DNA of 39,736 bases from Streptosporangiaceae bacterium. Lineage in GTDB: Bacteria > Actinomycetota > Actinomycetes > Streptosporangiales > Streptosporangiaceae. Made by a program: the position numbers and the translations under genes. Below, one piece after another: positions 1,940 through 11,389 of this stretch; the stretch's first letter is position 1; each line of letters begins with the position of its first letter. A model generated the notes under the pieces. The model had not been told where the DNA came from. It saw only the letters and a program-made list of their open reading frames with translations, and did no database searches. The stretch lies in the NCBI GenBank assembly GCA_030038495.1, contig JASHOV010000167.1, forward strand, positions 1 to 39,736. Direction: 5' to 3'.

Positions 1940-2099
1940 CCGGACAGCATGCCACTGGCGCGACGGGGCCGCACTCGGGCCGCCCCCGCGCGACAGGCGG
2001 CCGGCTCCCGCCAGGCGGAAGCATTCTTGTCAGTCACCCACCGTCATGTTTGAGTGAGGCGCGAGATGCCAGGGATCGGGCGCTGGAGGTGACGGCAGC
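1940..2099. promoter_or_regulatory. Divergent intergenic region
   Basis: This 160-bp gap separates two divergent units and must hold both promoters. A TTGTCA hexamer at 2027-2032 on the plus strand could be a -35 box, but the -10 opposite it is poor. GGAGG at 2085-2089 is the probable ribosome site for the ATG at 2100. I see no clear operator palindrome. Confidence 0.35.
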
Positions 2100-2639
2100 A
2101 TGGCCGGGCGGGAGAAGTTACTCGATCCGACCGGCTTTGACCAGCGGGCCATGGACACGACCCTGGCACCGCGCCCTGCGAGCCTGCGCGGGCTGACGGC
2201 GGGGCTGCTGGAGAACACCAAGCCCAACGCCGCCCTGTTCCTGTCTGTCGTGGGACGGGAACTGCAGCGCGAGCATGGCGTTGCGGCCGCCGTCATGTTC
2301 AGCAAGAGCTACTTCGGCACTCCGACGGAGGAGAGCCTCATCCAGCGCATCCTGCACAACTGTGACTTCGTCGTGGCCGGTATCGGTGATTGAGGCTCGT
2401 GCAGCGCGGCCAGTCTGGCCGACGGGATCCTGCTGGAGCGGGCCGGAGTGCCCGCGGTGAGCATCTGCACGGACCCGTTCGTACCGGCGGCACGGGCGAT
2501 GGCCACGGTGTACGGCTTCGGTGGCTACCAGTTCGTCACGATGCCGCATCCGCTCGCGAGCCTCGACGAGCAGCAGATCCAGGCTCGTGCCCGCGACCTG
2601 CTGCCGGACGTGCTTCGCGTCCTCGGCGCGGAGTCCTGA
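2100..2639 (+). CDS. UGSC-family selenoprotein (UGA at codon 98 read as selenocysteine)
   Basis: The frame from ATG 2100 meets TGA at 2391-2393 and then continues in the same frame to TGA at 2637-2639, giving 179 residues with one internal UGA. The residues around it are V-A-G-I-G-D-U-G-S-C-S-A-A-S-L-A-D. This is the U/C-G-S-C-[ST] motif for which the UGSC (seleno)protein family is named. Both sides stay protein-like: before it a V-G-R-E-L-Q-R-E-H-G region, after it V-S-I-C-T-D-P-F and a V-T-M-P-H-P-L segment. A hairpin suited to a bacterial SECIS follows the UGA. A redox pair of Sec98 and Cys101 is expected; the reaction is unknown. The next gene overlaps by one base (TGATG), so expression of the partner probably depends on ribosomes passing the UGA. 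Selenocysteine machinery (selA, selB, selC, selD) is not in this window and must be elsewhere. An automatic caller would split this gene at 2393 and 2448. Confidence 0.8.
2391..2421 (+). promoter_or_regulatory. SECIS-like hairpin after the in-frame UGA
   Basis: CGGCCA (2407-2412) pairs with TGGCCG (2416-2421) around a three-base loop GTC. The loop starts 19 nt after the UGA, has G in first place and U next. Bacterial SECIS elements lie in the coding region just after UGA and use a small loop with an early G (and U) at about this distance. The lower stem is weak. Confidence 0.6.
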
Positions 2640-3736
2640 TGACCGCCGATGTCAGCGATGCGCCGCTGGCCGACGCGGGCGAGGTCCGCGCCGCCATGGA
2701 GTACTACGCCCGGCAGGGCTGGACCGACGGCCTTCCTGTCGTGCCGGTAACCGAGTCGTACCTCGCCGAGTTCCTCGCCCGCACGGGGCGGGAACCGGGC
2801 GACGTCGTGTTCGCGATGCCGCACCTGAACCGCGAGTGCACCGTCCGGCTGGCGGCGGTCAATGCCGCCATGGCCGGATGCCTGCCCGACTACTTCCCGG
2901 TTGTGCTGGCCGCGTGGGAGGCACTGACGGGCGATGGCTACCCGGTCAGGGGTATCTGGCAGAGCACAACCGGCACCGCGCCCCTGCTCGTCGTCAACGG
3001 GCCGGTCCGCGCGCGCATCGGAATGAACAGCGCCGGCAATGTCTTCGGCTCTGGGTTCCGCGCGAACGCCACGATCGGCCGGGCGATCCGGCTCACCGCC
3101 ATCAACGTGTTCGGGCTGCACCCGCACCTGCTGGACCAGGCCACCCAGGGAACGCCTGCCAAGTACACCGCCTGCATCGCCGAGAACGAGGAACTGAGTC
3201 CGTGGTCACCACTGCACGTCGAGCACGGCTTCGATCCGGCGGACAGCACGGTCACCGCGATCGTCATCAGGTCCTGCGTGCACATCGAGGCCCGCCACAC
3301 GCAGGTGCCCGAGCAGCTGGCCCTCGACATCACAGGGACGATAGCGCGCACCGGCGCGCTGATCCACCGGACCGTCAGCGCGCTGGTCGTCCTGTCTCCC
3401 GAGCACGCGCGCGTGTTCGCGGCGGCCGGCTGGGGCAAGGATGAGCTGCGCCAGTACATCTACGACCACGCCGTGAACACGCGCGCGGGCCTGGCCGCGG
3501 TTGGCAAGGACGGGATCTCCCGGCATAGCCACTGGCGGCTGCCCGCTGACCACCCTGACGCCATCGCGGACGAAGCCGCAGCACACGGGAACTCCGACCT
3601 CGTGCCCCTCCTCAACTCGCCGGCTGCGGTGCAGGTGATGGTCGCGGGCGCCGACAACGCGGGTGTCTCCGCCGTCATCGAGACCTTCGGCCCTCGGGGC
3701 AACCCGCCGTCGATCGCGAAGGTGGAGCACGGCTAA
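2639..3736 (+). CDS. Uncharacterised partner protein of the UGSC selenoprotein
   Basis: A 365-residue protein with no function I can name. The ATG at 2639 overlaps the selenoprotein stop (TGATG), so the two are translationally coupled. The N-terminus has a Y-x-x-Q-G-W-T-D-G-L-P-V-V-P-V-T block typical of this uncharacterised family. Next comes P-H-L-N-R-E-C-T-V-R-L-A-A-V-N-A-A-M-A-G-C-L-P-D-Y, with two cysteines about 19 residues apart that could meet the selenoprotein's Sec/Cys pair. Further on is a Gly/Asn-rich stretch (M-N-S-A-G-N-V-F-G-S-G-F-R-A-N). There is no signal peptide or membrane helix, so it is likely cytosolic. The coupling suggests that the two proteins form one enzyme, possibly with this chain as the substrate-binding subunit. 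That is inference. Confidence 0.75.
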   Translation: MTADVSDAPLADAGEVRAAMEYYARQGWTDGLPVVPVTESYLAEFLARTGREPGDVVFAMPHLNRECTVRLAAVNAAMAGCLPDYFPVVLAAWEALTGDGYPVRGIWQSTTGTAPLLVVNGPVRARIGMNSAGNVFGSGFRANATIGRAIRLTAINVFGLHPHLLDQATQGTPAKYTACIAENEELSPWSPLHVEHGFDPADSTVTAIVIRSCVHIEARHTQVPEQLALDITGTIARTGALIHRTVSALVVLSPEHARVFAAAGWGKDELRQYIYDHAVNTRAGLAAVGKDGISRHSHWRLPADHPDAIADEAAAHGNSDLVPLLNSPAAVQVMVAGADNAGVSAVIETFGPRGNPPSIAKVEHG

Positions 3737-3750
3737 CCCCAGGGAGCACG

Positions 3751-5118
3751 GTGGACAGTCCGGCCGCGTTAACTGAGCCCAGCCGCAGCACGCCGGTGCG
3801 CGGCGAGTACGACGTGGTCGTCGTGGGCGGCGGCCCGGCGGGCCTGATGGCGGCGGCCGCGGCGGCGCGGACCGGGCACTCGGCGATCCTGCTCGAGCGC
3901 TATGGCTTCCTCGGCGGCGCCGGCACCGCAGGCGGACTGAGCACGTTCTGCGGCCTGCACGCCCGGGTGCACGGCGAGCACCAGCGCGTGATCCACGGGC
4001 TGGCGGACGAGCTGCTCGACCGGCTGACAAAACTGGACGGGCTCGCCGCGCCACACCTGACGATCAACGACGGCATCCTGGCCCAGGCGTTCGACATCTC
4101 CAGCTACAAGATCGCCGCGGACGAGCTCGTGACCGGGTCCGGGGCCCGGCTGCTGTTCCACGCGCTGGCCGTCGGCGTCGTCCTGGCCGCCGGCGACACC
4201 ATCGACGCGGTGCTGGTCGAGTCGAAGTCGGGCCGCGCGGCCGTACGCGGCCGGATCTTCATCGACGCGTCCGGCGACGCCGACGTGGCCGCCTGGGCGG
4301 GCGCGCCGTTCGAGAAGTCGCCGGGCCTAGACGGGATGCTCTATCCGTCGCTAATGTTCCGGATCAACGGAGTGGACGCCGCCGCCGCCGGCGACAAGCC
4401 CTGGCGGACGGTCGAGCAGCGGATGGACGCCGCCGAGCGGGCGGGCACGCACACGTTCCCCCGCAAGAAGCCGATCGTCCGCCCGCAGCGCAACCCGCTG
4501 GAGTGGCGCGCGAACCTCACCCAGCTCAGCAACCCGGACGGAAGCGCCGTGGACGGCACGGACGTAGACCAGCTCACGCACGGCGAGCTGCAGGGGCGCC
4601 AGCAGGCGCTGGACGCGTTCACGTTCATCCGCGATCACACGCCCGGATTCGGCGACTCCTACATCGTGGACCTGGCCCCGCAGATCGGGATCAGGGAGAC
4701 CCGGCGCATCGTCGGCGCCTACCAGCTGACCGAGGACGATGTGCTCGGCTGCGCCGACTTTCCTGACACGATCGGCGTGAACGGCTGGCCGGTGGAGTCG
4801 CACCAGGCGGGCACCGTCGAGTTCCGCTGGCCGCGCGGCGGGAACCCGCGCGGATTCTGCCAGCTGCCGTTGCGCATGATCCTGCCGGGCAGGATCGCCA
4901 ACCTGTACGTGATCGGCCGGTGCGCGTCGATGACCCACGACGCCCAGTCGGCGGCCAGGGTGACCGGGCCGTGTTTCGCCATGGGCCAGGCCGCCGGGAC
5001 CGCGGCCGGGCTGGCGCTCGACGCGGGTGTCGCCTGCCGCGACGTGAACGTCACCGACCTGCAGCGTCGGCTCGAGCTGGCCGGCGCCTACCTCGGCCGC
5101 GACGGCGGCAGCCCATGA
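3751..5118 (+). CDS. FAD-dependent oxidoreductase (FAD_oxidored type)
   Basis: A 455-residue flavoprotein. The N-terminal dinucleotide fold is Y-D-V-V-V-V-G-G-G-P-A-G-L-M-A-A around residue 25, ended by L-L-E-R-Y-G-F-L-G-G-A-G-T-A-G, the pattern of the PF12831-type family. The C-terminal FAD site is L-Y-V-I-G-R-C-A-S-M-T-H-D-A-Q-S-A-A-R-V-T-G-P. A mid-protein I-D-A-S-G-D-A-D-V-A-A-W-A-G segment is also diagnostic. Members oxidise or reduce varied small molecules, so the substrate cannot be read from sequence. It starts at GTG 3751 with AGGGAG nine bases upstream, 14 bp after the partner gene, and its stop overlaps the next start (ATGA). It is the third gene of the operon. Confidence 0.88.
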   Translation: MDSPAALTEPSRSTPVRGEYDVVVVGGGPAGLMAAAAAARTGHSAILLERYGFLGGAGTAGGLSTFCGLHARVHGEHQRVIHGLADELLDRLTKLDGLAAPHLTINDGILAQAFDISSYKIAADELVTGSGARLLFHALAVGVVLAAGDTIDAVLVESKSGRAAVRGRIFIDASGDADVAAWAGAPFEKSPGLDGMLYPSLMFRINGVDAAAAGDKPWRTVEQRMDAAERAGTHTFPRKKPIVRPQRNPLEWRANLTQLSNPDGSAVDGTDVDQLTHGELQGRQQALDAFTFIRDHTPGFGDSYIVDLAPQIGIRETRRIVGAYQLTEDDVLGCADFPDTIGVNGWPVESHQAGTVEFRWPRGGNPRGFCQLPLRMILPGRIANLYVIGRCASMTHDAQSAARVTGPCFAMGQAAGTAAGLALDAGVACRDVNVTDLQRRLELAGAYLGRDGGSP

Positions 5119-6803
5119 CGGCCCCGCTGCGCAGTAACTTCGAGCCGGGCACGAACCGGTGGGCCATGCGCCGTGCCCAGTGGACCGCGCTGGGCCTGAC
5201 CGACGAGGACATGGCCAGGCCCAAGATCGCGATCGTGAACAGCTCGTCCGACCTGGCGAGCTGCTTCAGCCACCTCGACGGCATGGTCCTCCCGCTTAAG
5301 GACGCCATCCGGGCGGCCGGGGGCATCGGGTTCGAGATCCGCACGGCCGCGCCCAGCGACGCCATCACCAGCGCCGGCGCGGCCGGGCAGTACATCCTGC
5401 CGAGCCGTGACCTGATCGTCAGCGACATCGAGGTAGCGGCCGAGGGCGCGCTCCTGGACGGCATGGTGTGCCTGTCGTCCTGCGACAAGACCACGCCCGC
5501 GCACCTGATGGCGGCCGGGCGGCTGGACATCCCGACGATCGTCGTCGCCTGCGGCTACCAGCCATCCGGGCGCTTCCGCGGGCAGCCCGTCGACTTCGAG
5601 GACGTCTTCGTGTACGCGGGCCACGTCGCCGCCGGCCGGATGACGGTCGCGGAGCTGGCCGAGATGACCGGCTGCGCGGTGCGCGGGCCCGGCGTCTGCG
5701 CGGGCATGGGCACCGCGAACTCCATGCACATCGCGGCCGAGGCCCTCGGCATGGCGCTGCCGGGCAGCACCCCGGTGCTGGCCGGCAGCGCGAAGATGTG
5801 GCAGGCCGTCGACGCGGCCGGACGGCGCATTGTCGAGCTGGTCGGGGCCGACGTCCGGCCGCGCGCCATTCTCACCGCGGGCGCGTTCCGCAACGCCGTG
5901 ATCGCGATCCTGGCGATCAGCGGCTCGGTCAACTGCCTCAAACACCTGCAGGCCGTCGCCGTCGAGGCCGGCTGCGACGTCGACGTGTACGGGCTCTTCG
6001 AGGAACTGGCCCCCGCGGTGCCGCTGCTCGCCGCGGTGAAGCCCAACGGCGACCAGCGCATCGACGAGTTCGAGGCCGCGGGCGGCGCGCTCGGCCTGCT
6101 GCGCCAGCTGCGGCCGATGCTCGATCTCGGCCAGCCGACAGTGGACGGCCGGAATATCGGGGCGGTGACAGCCGCCGGCCCGGACGTCGACGGCCCGGAC
6201 GTGGACGCCGCGGTGATCCGGCCGCTGGACGCCCCGTTCGCCCGCCATCCCGGCATCGTCATCCTGCGCGGCTCGCTCGCACCGGACGGCGCGGTGGTCA
6301 AGCGCACCGTCGCGGACGACGGCGTGAAACAGTTCACCGGGCCGGCCCGGGTCTTCCGGTCCCGTGAGCAGGGCCTGGCGGCCATCCGGGCCGGCCAGGT
6401 GCAGGCCGGCGAGGTGCTCGTGCTGACGGGCCTGGGCCTGCGCGGGGCTCCCGGCATGGGTTTCACGTCCGCGTTCGTCTTCGCCCTGGCCGGTGCCGGG
6501 CTGTCGGACAAGGTCGCCGTGGTCACCGACGGGCAGATGTCCGGCCTGGTCAACAAGGGCATCTCGGTGGCTGAGGTGAGCCCGGAAGGAGCGGCAGGCG
6601 GTCCGCTCGGCCTCGTCCGTGATGGCGACGTCATCCGCGTCGATGTGGACGCCGCCACGATCGACCTGGATGTGGCGCCCGCCGAGCTCGCCCGGCGGCG
6701 AGCCCAGCTGCCGCCGCCGACTGCGCCAGCGGGCTGCAGCTGGCTCTCGGTCTATGCCCGCACCGTCCGCCCGCTCGGCCAGGGCGCCACCCTGGGCACC
6801 TAA
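5115..6803 (+). CDS. IlvD/EDD-family dehydratase (sugar-acid type)
   Basis: A 562-residue iron-sulfur dehydratase that would remove water from a 2,3-dihydroxy acid to give a 2-keto-3-deoxy acid. All three expected cluster cysteines can be placed: Cys50 (S-D-L-A-S-C-F-S-H-L), Cys123 (L-S-S-C-D-K-T-T-P-A-H) and Cys195 (G-P-G-V-C-A-G-M-G-T-A-N-S-M). The C-terminal T-D-G-Q-M-S-G-L-V-N-K-G motif supplies the Mg2+/substrate loop with its catalytic Ser. The form of the CDK and GMGTANSM motifs is closer to sugar-acid dehydratases than to branched-chain IlvD, and no branched-chain gene is nearby. The ATG at 5115 overlaps the stop of the FAD gene. In this operon it most likely dehydrates an aldonate-type acid made by the dehydrogenases further down; the substrate is inference. 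Confidence 0.88.
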   Translation: MTAPLRSNFEPGTNRWAMRRAQWTALGLTDEDMARPKIAIVNSSSDLASCFSHLDGMVLPLKDAIRAAGGIGFEIRTAAPSDAITSAGAAGQYILPSRDLIVSDIEVAAEGALLDGMVCLSSCDKTTPAHLMAAGRLDIPTIVVACGYQPSGRFRGQPVDFEDVFVYAGHVAAGRMTVAELAEMTGCAVRGPGVCAGMGTANSMHIAAEALGMALPGSTPVLAGSAKMWQAVDAAGRRIVELVGADVRPRAILTAGAFRNAVIAILAISGSVNCLKHLQAVAVEAGCDVDVYGLFEELAPAVPLLAAVKPNGDQRIDEFEAAGGALGLLRQLRPMLDLGQPTVDGRNIGAVTAAGPDVDGPDVDAAVIRPLDAPFARHPGIVILRGSLAPDGAVVKRTVADDGVKQFTGPARVFRSREQGLAAIRAGQVQAGEVLVLTGLGLRGAPGMGFTSAFVFALAGAGLSDKVAVVTDGQMSGLVNKGISVAEVSPEGAAGGPLGLVRDGDVIRVDVDAATIDLDVAPAELARRRAQLPPPTAPAGCSWLSVYARTVRPLGQGATLGT

Positions 6804-6816
6804 GGAGCACGACGTC

Positions 6817-7692
6817 ATGACCGCAGAACCCACCAGTCCGCTGACCCTGGAGCGCGGCCGGCCCGTCACCGCGGCGGAGCTGTCGTGGCGGGCGGACTGG
6901 ATCCGGCTCAACACAGTGCACCTGATCGCGCAGGCCGGCCTCGGCCACTACGCGAGCACGTTCTCCTGCGCGGAGATCGTAGCGACGCTGTACTACCACA
7001 CCCTGCGACTGCGGCCCAGAAAACCGGACTGGGTGGACCGCGACCGGTTCCTGCTCGGCAAGGGCCACGTCGCGACCGGGCTCTGGCCGGTCCTGGCCGA
7101 CCTCGGCTACTACCCGCAGGACTGGCTGAAGCAGTTCGGCTCGGTCGGCTCGCCGCTGAACGACCACCCGAACATGCGGCTCGCGCCCGGCATCGACTTC
7201 AGCTCCGGCGCGCTCGGGCACAACCTCTCGGTGGCGGTCGGCATGGCGCTGGCCGGGCGGCTCTCCGGGCGCGACTACAGGACGTTCGTCCTGACCGGCG
7301 ATGGCGAGCTGCAGGAGGGGCAGATCTGGGAGGCCGCGATGGCGGCCAGCCACTACAAGCTCGGCAACCTGGTCACGGTCGTCGACGCCAACGGCTTCTC
7401 CGGCAGCGGCCCCACCTCGGCGGCCATGAACATCGAGCCGCTCGCCGCTCGCTTCGCCGCCTTCGGCTGGCTGACCAGCGAGATCGACGGGCACGACCCC
7501 GCCGCGCTGATGAACGCCTTCGACAGACTTCCCGATCCAGGCGCGCGTCAGCCGGTCTGCGTCATCGCGCGCACCAGGAAGGGCCGGGGCTCGGCCCTGA
7601 TGGAGCAGGCGCCGCAGGCCTGGCACCTCGGGCTGCTGCCGGCCGACCTGCAGGATGCCGTGATTGCCGAGATAACCGCGAGAATGCAGTGA
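6817..7692 (+). CDS. Transketolase, N-terminal (TPP-binding) subunit
   Basis: A 291-residue protein equal to the first third of a full transketolase. The thiamine diphosphate motif is G-D-G-E-L-Q-E-G-Q-I-W-E-A at 161-173, with the second ligand Asn192 in V-V-D-A-N-G. His residues in G-L-G-H-Y and G-K-G-H match the substrate channel. It starts at ATG 6817, with AAGGAG at 6802-6807 overlapping the stop of the dehydratase gene. The C-terminal half is the next gene (GTGA overlap), as in the split transketolases of many bacteria. Together they would transfer a two-carbon ketol unit between sugar phosphates or from a pathway-specific ketose. Confidence 0.9.
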   Translation: MTAEPTSPLTLERGRPVTAAELSWRADWIRLNTVHLIAQAGLGHYASTFSCAEIVATLYYHTLRLRPRKPDWVDRDRFLLGKGHVATGLWPVLADLGYYPQDWLKQFGSVGSPLNDHPNMRLAPGIDFSSGALGHNLSVAVGMALAGRLSGRDYRTFVLTGDGELQEGQIWEAAMAASHYKLGNLVTVVDANGFSGSGPTSAAMNIEPLAARFAAFGWLTSEIDGHDPAALMNAFDRLPDPGARQPVCVIARTRKGRGSALMEQAPQAWHLGLLPADLQDAVIAEITARMQ

Positions 7693-8708
7693 CCCCGCCC
7701 AGATCAGGGAACGAGGGCCGGGCTGCCGCCGCGGAAGGTCCGGCTAGCCCCGGCATGGTCGATGTATTCTCCGATGTTCAGGTCGAGACTGCCCTGGCGG
7801 CGAACCCGGCCGGGTACGCGATCGCCGAGCTCGCCGACTCCGATCCGCGCATTCTCACGCTCAGCGCCGATCTCAGCACGCCGCTGGCCGAGTTCAGGGA
7901 CCGCCATCCGGACCGCTACATCGAGCTCGGCATCGCGGAGACGAACTCGGTATCGGTGGCGGCGGGGCTGGCCGCCAGCGGGTTCGTGCCCTACATCTTC
8001 TCGATGGCACCGTTCGGTGTGCTCAAGTGCGCCGAGCAGCTCCGCACCGACGTCGCCTACAACCACCTGCCGGTCCGGCTCGTCGGCCGGCTGTCCGGCC
8101 TGGCCATGGGGTTCTTCGGGACCAGCCACCACGCCGTCGAGGACATCGCCGTCGCCCGCGCGATCACGAACATGACGGTCGTCGCGCCCGCCGATAGCCA
8201 TTCCGCGCTGAGCCTGATGCGATCCACCGCCGGGCTGAACGGCCCGGTCTACCTAAGGATCACCGAGCGACCCGTCAATGTGTACCGCGAGCCGCCGACG
8301 ATCGGCCTCGGTCAGTGGCTGCGGCTGCGCAGCGGCAGCGATGTCTCCCTGATCGGGCACGGACTGGGCGTCGGCCTGGCCGTGCGGGCCGCGGCGGCGC
8401 TGGCGGCCGAGGGCATCGAGGCCGATGTCTATGACGCCGCCTACCTCAAGCCGTTCGACGAGACCGTCCTGACCGAGAGCGCCGCGCGGACCGGCCGCGT
8501 CGTCACCATCGAGGAGCACAGCGAGATCGGCGGGCTCGCGAGCATCGTCGCCGAGGTTGCGGGCAGGCGCAGGCTCGGCGTCGCGCTGCGGAACGTCGGA
8601 CTGCCCGACGCCGACCTCGAGGTCGGGACGCCCGCCGATCTCTACGAGTACTACGGATTCACCGCCGACGGCGTCACGACCGCCGCGCGGGCGCTGGCCG
8701 GGGCCTGA
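7689..8708 (+). CDS. Transketolase, C-terminal subunit
   Basis: A 339-residue protein with the pyrimidine-binding domain and the C-terminal domain of transketolase. Y-I-E-L-G-I-A-E-T-N-S-V-S-V-A-A-G-L-A contains the Glu that activates TPP. F-G-T-S-H-H-A-V-E-D-I-A and D-S-H-S-A-L follow, and the C-terminal domain carries E-E-H-S-E-I-G-G-L. The GTG at 7689 overlaps the upstream stop (GTGA) and is preferred for coupling. The ATG at 7755 would drop a 22-residue low-complexity lead and is the alternative start. It works as a heterodimer half with the preceding gene. The pair is dedicated to this operon, which argues for a ketol-transfer step in the pathway rather than housekeeping pentose-phosphate work. 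Confidence 0.88.
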   Translation: MTPPRSGNEGRAAAAEGPASPGMVDVFSDVQVETALAANPAGYAIAELADSDPRILTLSADLSTPLAEFRDRHPDRYIELGIAETNSVSVAAGLAASGFVPYIFSMAPFGVLKCAEQLRTDVAYNHLPVRLVGRLSGLAMGFFGTSHHAVEDIAVARAITNMTVVAPADSHSALSLMRSTAGLNGPVYLRITERPVNVYREPPTIGLGQWLRLRSGSDVSLIGHGLGVGLAVRAAAALAAEGIEADVYDAAYLKPFDETVLTESAARTGRVVTIEEHSEIGGLASIVAEVAGRRRLGVALRNVGLPDADLEVGTPADLYEYYGFTADGVTTAARALAGA

Positions 8709-8719
8709 GCGGGCGTCGG

Positions 8720-9727
8720 ATGCGCGCCGTGGTCTGCGTGCCTGGCGGCACCGAGGTGACCGACGTTCCCGACCCGGTGCCGGGAGTCGGCGAGGTGGTC
8801 GTGGCGGTGGAGGCGTGCGGTCTGTGCGGCTCCGACGTGCACGCGGTCGCCGCCGGGTTCGCCCGGCCGGGGCAGATACTGGGCCACGAGTTCAGCGGGC
8901 GCATAGCCGAGACGGGGCGGGGTGTAACCGGCTGGCAAGCCGGCCAGGCCGTCGCGGTCAATCCGCTGGGCAGCTGCGGCACGTGCCGGGCGTGCGGCGG
9001 CGGTGTGCCGTTCCGCTGCGACGCGATGCCCAACCTGGGGATTAGCGCTCCCGGCGCGTTCGCGCAGTTCGCCGCGGTCCCGCAGGCACAGCTGGTCGCG
9101 CTGCCCGACGGGCTGCCGGTCGAGGTCGGTGCGCACGCCGAGCCGCTCGCGGTCGCGCTGCAGGCGGTCTCGCAGGCCGGTGCCGGGCCCGGTGATGCGG
9201 TCCTGGTGTACGGGGTCGGCCCGATCGGGCTCAGCGTGATCATGGCGCTGCGGCTGGCCGGAGTGGACGCCATCGTGGCCGCCGGGAGGTCGGCGGGCCG
9301 GCGCGCTGCCGCCGCCAGGGTCGGCGCCGGCGTGGTCATCGACACCCGGCAGGTCGGCGTGACGGAGTACGCGACGCAGGCCGGCCTGCGATTCACCGCC
9401 GCCATCGAGTGCTCGGGCGCGCCAGGGTCGGTGGCCGAGGCACTGGGCCTGCTCGAGCCGGGCGGCAGCTGCGTCGAGGTGGCGCTGACGTCGGAGGATG
9501 CCGCCGTTCCCCTCCTCCGCATGGTCGGCGACGGGCTGCGGCTCTCGGGCACGTGCGCGTTCAGCAATCCGGCCTACGAGGCAGCAGTAGGGCACCTGGC
9601 CGCCGGGCGGGTGCCGGCCGCCGACCTGATCAGCGAGCGGGTGAGCCTGGCGGACACGCCCGCCGCCCTGGTCCGGCTGCGTGCGCCCGGTGACCTGGTC
9701 AAGATCCTGACCCGGCCCGGCCAGTAG
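8720..9727 (+). CDS. Zinc-dependent alcohol/polyol dehydrogenase (MDR family)
   Basis: A 335-residue medium-chain dehydrogenase. Catalytic zinc ligands are Cys in A-C-G-L-C-G-S-D-V-H and His-Glu in G-H-E-F-S-G. The structural zinc loop is complete: C-G-T-C-R-A-C-G-G-G-V-P-F-R-C. The NAD(P) fold is V-Y-G-V-G-P-I-G-L-S. Its overall look is that of sorbitol, threonine or butanediol dehydrogenases, oxidising a secondary alcohol of a polyol or sugar. It starts at ATG 8720, 11 bp after the transketolase gene. It probably catalyses an early oxidation in the pathway; the substrate is unknown. Confidence 0.88.
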   Translation: MRAVVCVPGGTEVTDVPDPVPGVGEVVVAVEACGLCGSDVHAVAAGFARPGQILGHEFSGRIAETGRGVTGWQAGQAVAVNPLGSCGTCRACGGGVPFRCDAMPNLGISAPGAFAQFAAVPQAQLVALPDGLPVEVGAHAEPLAVALQAVSQAGAGPGDAVLVYGVGPIGLSVIMALRLAGVDAIVAAGRSAGRRAAAARVGAGVVIDTRQVGVTEYATQAGLRFTAAIECSGAPGSVAEALGLLEPGGSCVEVALTSEDAAVPLLRMVGDGLRLSGTCAFSNPAYEAAVGHLAAGRVPAADLISERVSLADTPAALVRLRAPGDLVKILTRPGQ

Positions 9728-9762
9728 CCGGGGACGGACCCAGTCGCGATGTGAGGAGGGAC

Positions 9763-10632
9763 ATGGACGAGCTCGCCGGACGGGTCGCCGTCATCACCGG
9801 CGCGGGCAGCGGCATGGGCCGCGCCTTCGCCGTCCGCTTCGCCGCCGAGGGGATGAAGATCGTGGCCGCCGACATCGAGCCGGACGCGCTGGACGCGACC
9901 GTGGCCGAGGTCGCCGCGGCCGGTCATGACATAACCGGGTTCCGTACGGACGTCGCCGACCCGCAGGCCGTGCGGCAGCTCGCGGACGCGGCGTTCGAGC
10001 GGTACGGCGCCGTGCACCTGCTCTGCAACAACGCGGGCGTCGAGGGCTACCTGGACGGCCCGATCTGGGCCGCCACCGACCGCGACTGGGAGTGGACGGT
10101 CGGCGTCAACTTCTGGAGCGTGGTGCACGGCATCCGCGCGTTCGTGCCGCGGATGCTCGCGGCCGGCGAGCCCGGTCACGTCGTCAACACCTGCTCGATG
10201 ACCGCCGTGGTCGGTGCCAGGAACATGTACGCCGTCACCAAGCACGCCGTCCTGGCATTGTCGGAGGTGCTCGCGGCCGACCTGCGGGACCTCGATGCTC
10301 CGATCGGCGTGACCGCACTGTGCCCCGGCATGATCGCGACCAGCCTGTTCCGCGGGATAAGAAACCGGCCCGCGGAGCTGCGCAACGACGCCGAGCCCGA
10401 CGGGAGCCAGGAAGGCCGCGAGCTGCGCGAGCGGATGGACGCGATGCTCGCCGCCGGGATGCCGCCCGCCGAGGTCGCGGATCTGCTGGCCACCGCGGTC
10501 CGCCGTGGCGACAGCTACCTGCTGACCGATCACGACTGGGACGACAGGATCCGGCAGCGGCACGAGTCCATCCTGGCCGCTGCGGTGGGACCGCTGATCC
10601 CGGCGCGCGAGAGCGGAGCTGACGATGAGTGA
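9763..10632 (+). CDS. Short-chain dehydrogenase/reductase
   Basis: A 289-residue classical SDR. The cofactor motif is T-G-A-G-S-G-M-G near the N-terminus, then L-L-C-N-N-A-G-V-E, the catalytic Ser in N-T-C-S-M-T and Tyr/Lys in Y-A-V-T-K. Asp-Ile after the second strand (A-A-D-I-E) suggests NAD preference. The C-terminal ~90 residues are longer than usual and include a polar helix of R-N-D-A-E-P-D-G type. ATG 9763 is chosen because AGGAGG at 9754-9759 sits just before it; GTG 9751 would place that site inside the gene. It overlaps the next SDR by 8 bp, so the two are coupled. Confidence 0.87.
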   Translation: MDELAGRVAVITGAGSGMGRAFAVRFAAEGMKIVAADIEPDALDATVAEVAAAGHDITGFRTDVADPQAVRQLADAAFERYGAVHLLCNNAGVEGYLDGPIWAATDRDWEWTVGVNFWSVVHGIRAFVPRMLAAGEPGHVVNTCSMTAVVGARNMYAVTKHAVLALSEVLAADLRDLDAPIGVTALCPGMIATSLFRGIRNRPAELRNDAEPDGSQEGRELRERMDAMLAAGMPPAEVADLLATAVRRGDSYLLTDHDWDDRIRQRHESILAAAVGPLIPARESGADDE

Positions 10633-11389
10633 GCGTTTTGCCGGGAAGGTGGCCGTGGTCACCGGGGCCGCTAGCGGCTTCGGGCTGGCGGCCGCGACCC
10701 GCCTCGCGGCCGAGGGCGCCAGCGTGGTTCTCGTCGACCGCGCGGCCGACGCCCTGCAGGAGGCCGCCGCCTCGATCCACGGCGCACTGCCGGTGGTCGC
10801 CGACGTCAGCCTGGAAGCCGACGTGGAGTCCTACGTGGCCGCAGCGCTGTCGGCGCACGGGCGGATCGATCTGTTCTTCAATAACGCCGGCATCGAGGGC
10901 CGGATGGCCCCGATGACCGAGCTGTCGGCGGACGACTTCGACCGCGTGTGGGCGGTGAACGCCCGCGGAGTGTTCCTCGGGCTGCGGGCCGTGCTCCGGA
11001 TGATGAAGCAGCAGAAGTCCGGGGCGATCGTGAACACGGCGTCGATGGCCGGCATCCGGGGCAGCGCGACGTTCTCGCCTTACGTCGCGTCCAAGCACGC
11101 CGTGGTGGGCCTCACCCGGTGCGCCGCGCTGGAGGGCGCGCCGTTCGGGATCCGGGTCAACGCGGTCGCCCCCGGCCACATCGATACCCGGATGGCGCGC
11201 GCGCTGACCGCGCAGATCAATCCCGAGGACCCGGACGGCGTCTACCAGCGGATCGCGGCCAGCGTCCCGCTCGGCGGCCGGTACGGCACCGCGGCGGAAG
11301 TCGCCGGCCTGGTGCTCTGGCTGCTTTCCGACGACGCCGCGTACATCTCCGGCGCGACCCAGCTCATCGACGGCGCGCTCAACGCCTGA
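10625..11389 (+). CDS. Short-chain dehydrogenase/reductase
   Basis: A 254-residue classical SDR of standard length. Motifs in order: T-G-A-A-S-G-F-G (cofactor), V-L-V-D-R (Asp, NAD-type), F-F-N-N-A-G-I-E-G, the catalytic Ser in N-T-A-S-M-A-G, and Y-V-A-S-K-H-A-V. The C-terminus has the usual G-A-T-Q-L-I-D-G-A. It is distinct from the SDR just upstream, so they are not a recent tandem duplicate. It is the last gene of the operon; a convergent methyltransferase gene ends 18 bp downstream. A sugar, polyol or hydroxyacid substrate is likely from context. Confidence 0.88.
   Translation: MSERFAGKVAVVTGAASGFGLAAATRLAAEGASVVLVDRAADALQEAAASIHGALPVVADVSLEADVESYVAAALSAHGRIDLFFNNAGIEGRMAPMTELSADDFDRVWAVNARGVFLGLRAVLRMMKQQKSGAIVNTASMAGIRGSATFSPYVASKHAVVGLTRCAALEGAPFGIRVNAVAPGHIDTRMARALTAQINPEDPDGVYQRIAASVPLGGRYGTAAEVAGLVLWLLSDDAAYISGATQLIDGALNA

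Follow-up and report, generated by a model that had tools for sequence, protein, structure and literature searches.

The question raised by this locus is whether two short frames separated by a single TGA are the pieces of a broken gene or one gene in which UGA is read as selenocysteine (Sec). The window is the whole stretch of DNA analysed, 39,736 nt of contig JASHOV010000167.1 in assembly GCA_030038495.1 (Streptosporangiaceae bacterium), and all coordinates are positions in it unless a locus is named. The host is represented by a draft genome of 6.59 Mb, 88% complete; among named relatives, metagenome assemblies of Streptosporangiaceae stand closest to it. From the comparisons below, positions 2100-2639 almost certainly hold a functional selenoprotein gene of the UGSC family, with UGA98 read as Sec.

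The in-frame UGA and its column in relatives

The features of the gene itself are the following.

2085..2089, plus strand: Shine-Dalgarno-like GGAGG seen in the sequence, 10 nt 5' of the ATG
2100..2639, plus strand: gene of a UGSC-family selenoprotein, from ATG at 2100 to the TGA stop at 2637-2639; product of 179 residues with predicted Sec98
2391..2393, plus strand: in-frame UGA at codon 98, almost certainly read as selenocysteine; TGA in 17/17 Sec-group orthologs, TGC in 7/7 Cys-group orthologs
2407..2421, plus strand: hairpin of the bacterial SECIS type, CGGCCA[GUC]UGGCCG, with its apical G at +20 relative to the UGA, invariant codons, and a compensatory change in ortholog L094

Readthrough of codon 98 gives the continuous 179-residue protein that the first-pass annotation had described, and this protein carries GIGD-U-GSCS at the recoded position. 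It matches the NCBIfam model NF041046 (UGSC_fam) with 153.7 bits (cut-off 125) and the Pfam model PF24696 (UGSC) with 211.3 bits (cut-off 25) over residues 7-176. With these near full-length matches and the TGA kept in frame at the same codon in 16 genomes besides the host, the UGSC reading of this region is far above chance. The same annotation had called the selenoprotein "hidden"; it was right about the selenoprotein, but the gene is hardly hidden, since NCBI has a dedicated model for the UGSC (seleno)protein.

The family has been known since 2008 as the "UGSC-containing protein" of Zhang and Gladyshev (PMC2398784). It is established as a selenoprotein family without an assigned function (PMC2398784, PMC9312934, PMC13188914), ranks with the most abundant selenoproteins of aquatic metagenomes (PMC2398784), and is listed in a 2026 review among selenoproteins with largely uncharacterised functions (PMC13188914). 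The window gene is almost certainly a genuine selenoprotein gene, and it is a further member of this family, which it resembles in sequence, in the UGSC motif, in the exchange of Sec and Cys, in the in-frame recoded stop and in the downstream hairpin. It differs in belonging to a Streptosporangiaceae clade of soil actinobacteria with its own gene neighbourhood, and otherwise in nothing substantive. UGSC-motif selenoproteins are also described in Geodermatophilaceae (PMC5330540), where the Sec codon is UAG, whereas the window gene uses UGA.

Orthologs were searched in 60 relatives and then in 347 genomes of the same order. Codon 98 was inspected in all 24 close UGSC genes recovered (from 23 genomes), being TGA in 17, the window gene included, TGC in seven, and no other residue in any. 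The UGA therefore lies exactly where the first-pass annotation had placed it, in the Sec/Cys column of the family, and the alignment of homologues that it had proposed returned only UGA or Cys at the first position of the U/C-G-S-C motif. In a second, paralogous group, about 45% identical and represented in the host genome by L002, L033 alone among the genes examined has TGA and the others have TGC. The more distant homologs L035 and L036, of a related family, carry TGA too. Because the same-column TGA is shared across orthologs, a paralog and distant homologs, a chance nonsense mutation is ruled out.

The tree requires at least three changes between the Sec and Cys states. Within the ortholog group, the Cys genes form one supported clade next to the Sec rows; since the inner branches are weak, we do not call the direction of change. 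The codon immediately 5' of the UGA (2388-2390 in the window) reads GAT in every ortholog of the Sec type (17/17) and GAC in every one of the Cys type (7/7), a split that suggests selection acting on the sequence just 5' of the recoded codon; decoding context is the only explanation we can offer.

Two further observations concern the distribution of the family. The host genome also contains a Cys-type UGSC paralog (L002, G000:C522:5968-6489, minus strand), which has its own partner gene and adjoins an alcohol dehydrogenase gene. Another genome of the same order (G037, 5.8 Mb) has ten UGSC-like matches (e.g. on C108, C117, C109, C91 and C60), 8 of which contain one in-frame TGA each, though the two lowest-scoring matches may be members of a related family. 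For a single selenoprotein family, such an expansion is unusual.

The downstream hairpin and the selenocysteine machinery

In bacteria the SECIS element is a hairpin directly after the UGA, within the coding sequence, with a small apical loop that bears a guanosine (PMC1088965). The window hairpin agrees with this in all these respects, and its particular form, a 3-nt GUY loop on a 6-bp stem, is within normal variation. All 17 UGA orthologs have the 6-bp stem and 3-nt loop (CGGCCA-GUY-UGGCCG or the variant of L094), and in each the loop begins at a distance of 20 nt from the UGA. The L094 variant, CCGCCA-GUU-UGGCGG, results from a double synonymous change that preserves the base pair. The Ser codon spanning the loop base is AGT in 17/17 of these genes, while AGT is rare at their other Ser codons (2/172). 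When L033, L035 and L036 are included, the loop is at +20 or +21 in 20/20 UGA genes, even though the stems of these three are unrelated in sequence to the ortholog stem; in the distant UGA homologs the loop at +20 or +21 starts with G, on stems such as GUCGUGGA-GUG-UCCACGAC and CGUCUGC-GGUC-GCGGACG. In the Cys orthologs, by contrast, the place of Ser AGT is taken by Thr ACC, and a hairpin looped at +20 is lacking.

The presence of a hairpin does not by itself separate the two groups. Hairpins also form in this region in 17 of 24 GC-rich Cys genes, a consequence of their high GC content, and we dropped hairpin presence as a discriminator; likewise, the folding energy of the region is not unusual (z = 0.9). 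What sets the UGA genes apart from the Cys genes is only the loop position, the invariant codons and the compensatory changes. On this comparative evidence the hairpin at 2407-2421, just 3' of the UGA and with a small G-containing apical loop, is under selection and conserved as RNA.

The first-pass annotation had advised a search for selA, selB, selC and selD. In the host genome we found selB with its C-terminal domain, selD, and directly upstream of selB the C-terminus of selA, cut by the contig end, so that selA, selB and selD are all represented, selA as a fragment. Neither of the two findings that the first-pass annotation had named as refuting its reading, a genome devoid of Sec machinery and unrelated residues or frameshifts at the UGA position in close relatives, was thus borne out. 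The host SelB is 68% identical to a SelB of the same genus and hence no obvious contaminant. The part of the search that failed is selC: the 88%-complete draft yielded no tRNA-Sec, its Rfam matches being tRNA-Ser and other tRNAs. One host match above the Rfam cut-off for tRNA-Sec is a tRNA-Ser, and for this reason the cut-off alone was rejected as evidence of tRNA-Sec. In G006 and G004, of the same genus, selC precedes selA by less than 1 kb, so that the host selC would fall past the broken contig end.

Among the other UGA-bearing genomes, tRNA-Sec is present at 68 bits or more in 15 of 16, and ARAGORN called tRNA-Sec(UCA) at 10/10 tested loci from relatives; in G361, which bears the UGA, neither tRNA-Sec nor selA was seen. 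The genomes with Cys orthologs mostly keep the Sec machinery, with neither tRNA-Sec nor selA seen in G311. One genome (G028) has two different SelA genes (C638:1435-2652 and C541:844-2088) and two tRNA-Sec genes, the result of either a second Sec system or bin contamination. We also observed a tRNA with anticodon CUA (L006:1501-1572, G000:C280:29283-29353; Rfam tRNA, 57.4 bits), called tRNA-Pyl by ARAGORN, which may be of the amber-suppressor type or a misbinned or phage gene.

We infer that a ribosome reaching UGA codon 98 would insert Sec there, owing to SelB that carries Sec-tRNA and binds the hairpin directly behind the codon. Decoding of UGA98 as another amino acid, by general readthrough or reassignment, would leave the same open frame, which alone is silent on the residue inserted. 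This is very improbable, as UGA still terminates the window gene and many orthologs, Cys is the only replacement in relatives, and selB, selD, a selA fragment and a SECIS-type hairpin after the codon are all present. Least credible is a pseudogene, that is, a Cys-type UGSC gene whose frame was recently interrupted by a nonsense change from TGC to TGA, or seems so through an error in sequencing: seven Cys orthologs one base away and a draft assembly as the source of the window make it conceivable, but conservation across genera has already refuted it, with the same TGA in 17 genomes, protein conserved on both sides, hairpin codons conserved beyond what the protein needs, and GAT before the UGA in none of the Cys group.

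Partner gene, predicted fold and possible role

For the predicted Sec-containing UGSC protein, leads to a function come from its neighbours and its predicted structure. The genes that follow it in the window are listed below.

2639..3736, plus strand: partner protein of 365 aa, its start overlapping the end of the UGSC gene (ATGA); assigned to no family in Pfam or NCBIfam
3751..5118, plus strand: FAD-dependent oxidoreductase (PF12831), a recurrent neighbour
5100..6803 (start approximate), plus strand: IlvD/EDD-type sugar-acid or dihydroxy-acid dehydratase, a recurrent neighbour
6808..7692 (start approximate), plus strand: transketolase N-terminal subunit
7686..8708 (start approximate), plus strand: transketolase C-terminal subunit
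8720..9727, plus strand: zinc alcohol dehydrogenase of the polyol-dehydrogenase type
9751..10632, plus strand: first short-chain dehydrogenase
10625..11389, plus strand: second short-chain dehydrogenase

The end of the UGSC gene overlaps the start of the partner gene (ATGA, 2639), and wherever the flank is long enough the partner nearly always adjoins UGSC, whether this is of the Sec or the Cys form. Searches of Pfam and NCBIfam returned no family for the partner protein, no clear sequence relative was found in the PDB, and a fold search gave weak matches only, with class I fumarases on top (TM about 0.2); for these reasons we give it no function. At one locus (L108:4408-5263, G010:C137) the partner matches as two pieces that overlap, residues 3-149 and residues 212-364, and that leave a gap, which suggests an internal deletion or a frameshift.

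The set of transketolase, UGSC, partner, FAD oxidoreductase and IlvD-type dehydratase recurs, and the loci L109 to L119 show several combinations of it around UGSC. Sugar-type ABC transporter genes lie beside the UGSC loci L111, L113 and L114, and an IclR regulator is found at L116. The sugar gene set was not seen around the closest UGA orthologs (L102-L108), partly because several of them are on short contigs. From the recurrent dehydratase, oxidoreductase and transketolase genes and the sugar-type transporters, it is a reasonable but tentative inference that UGSC takes part in breaking down sugars, sugar acids or polyols.

The AlphaFold model of the UGSC protein (pLDDT 88.9) alternates strand and helix five times, and Sec98 lies between the strand at 90-96 and the helix at 99-114, with Cys101 three residues further on (UxxC). 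The product would thus be a small doubly wound alpha/beta protein with Sec at a strand end and the N-terminus of the next helix. A thioredoxin fold has been proposed for the family (PMC2398784). The best structural matches of the model are receiver, flavodoxin-like and Rossmann-like folds, which speaks against that proposal; thioredoxin is not among the matches listed, and the thioredoxin fold may still apply. The fold predicted here is doubly wound alpha/beta rather than the thioredoxin fold of the literature.

The UGSC protein, together with its translationally coupled 365-residue partner, would most probably make a two-subunit selenol/thiol enzyme, set in a catabolic operon for sugars, sugar acids or polyols (dehydratase, FAD oxidoreductase, transketolase, dehydrogenases); redox or reductive chemistry is suggested by analogy with GrdB and PrdB, the Sec subunits of glycine and D-proline reductase. 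As a whole, we hold this biochemical role to be possible rather than probable.

A more specific version is that UGSC is a selenoenzyme like GrdB or PrdB, in which the selenolate attacks a substrate carbon in the reductive cleavage of a sugar-derived acid and the partner provides the substrate site. The GrdB model is matched by 20/39 UGSC members and the PrdB model by 12/39 (E < 0.1, best 8e-4), and profile-profile comparison by hhalign gives E about 4e-4 to both, with Sec aligned on Sec. Common to the three families are Sec after a hydrophobic strand and then the motif E-R/S-AG-I/V-P. On the other side, the hhalign probability is 33-36%, UGSC, at 180 aa, has nothing that corresponds to the N-terminal part of GrdB, no pyruvoyl-type subunit was identified, and sequence search found no relative with a solved structure. 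The protein scores far below the family cut-offs (17.2 against 602 bits for TIGR01917, 14 against 65 for TIGR01918), and we do not file it under GrdB/PrdB for this reason. Kinship of the partner with GrdB was also considered and rejected, since the two do not align. The link between UGSC and the Sec domain of GrdB/PrdB is weak but consistent, and a function of this kind is a tentative possibility.

Slightly less likely is the role suggested in the selenoproteome literature, in which UGSC is no catabolic enzyme but a thiol oxidoreductase of the thioredoxin-like kind or a protein of peroxide defence. The UxxC motif would fit it, but the fivefold strand/helix alternation with Sec at a strand-helix turn and the structural matches named above point elsewhere, and a constant partner amid catabolic genes does not look like a system for stress defence. 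That UGSC is instead a minimal selenolate domain of the GrdB/PrdB type, not thioredoxin-like, which with its partner degrades acids derived from sugars or polyols, we regard as rather unlikely in this full form; if true, it would mean that selenium has a catalytic role in soil actinobacteria that is new.

New are the RNA-level evidence in this clade, the partner, the surrounding gene set, and the hint from fold and GrdB. The locus offers a clean case of Sec/Cys exchange, in which the Cys orthologs have neither the UGA nor the +20 hairpin and retain the partner and neighbours. Testable handles are the constant partner, the catabolic set that in related genera lies by a sugar-type transporter, and the matched Sec and Cys orthologs, which share partner and neighbours. 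The constant partner gene and the sugar/polyol-type neighbourhood are the first lead to the function of the UGSC family.
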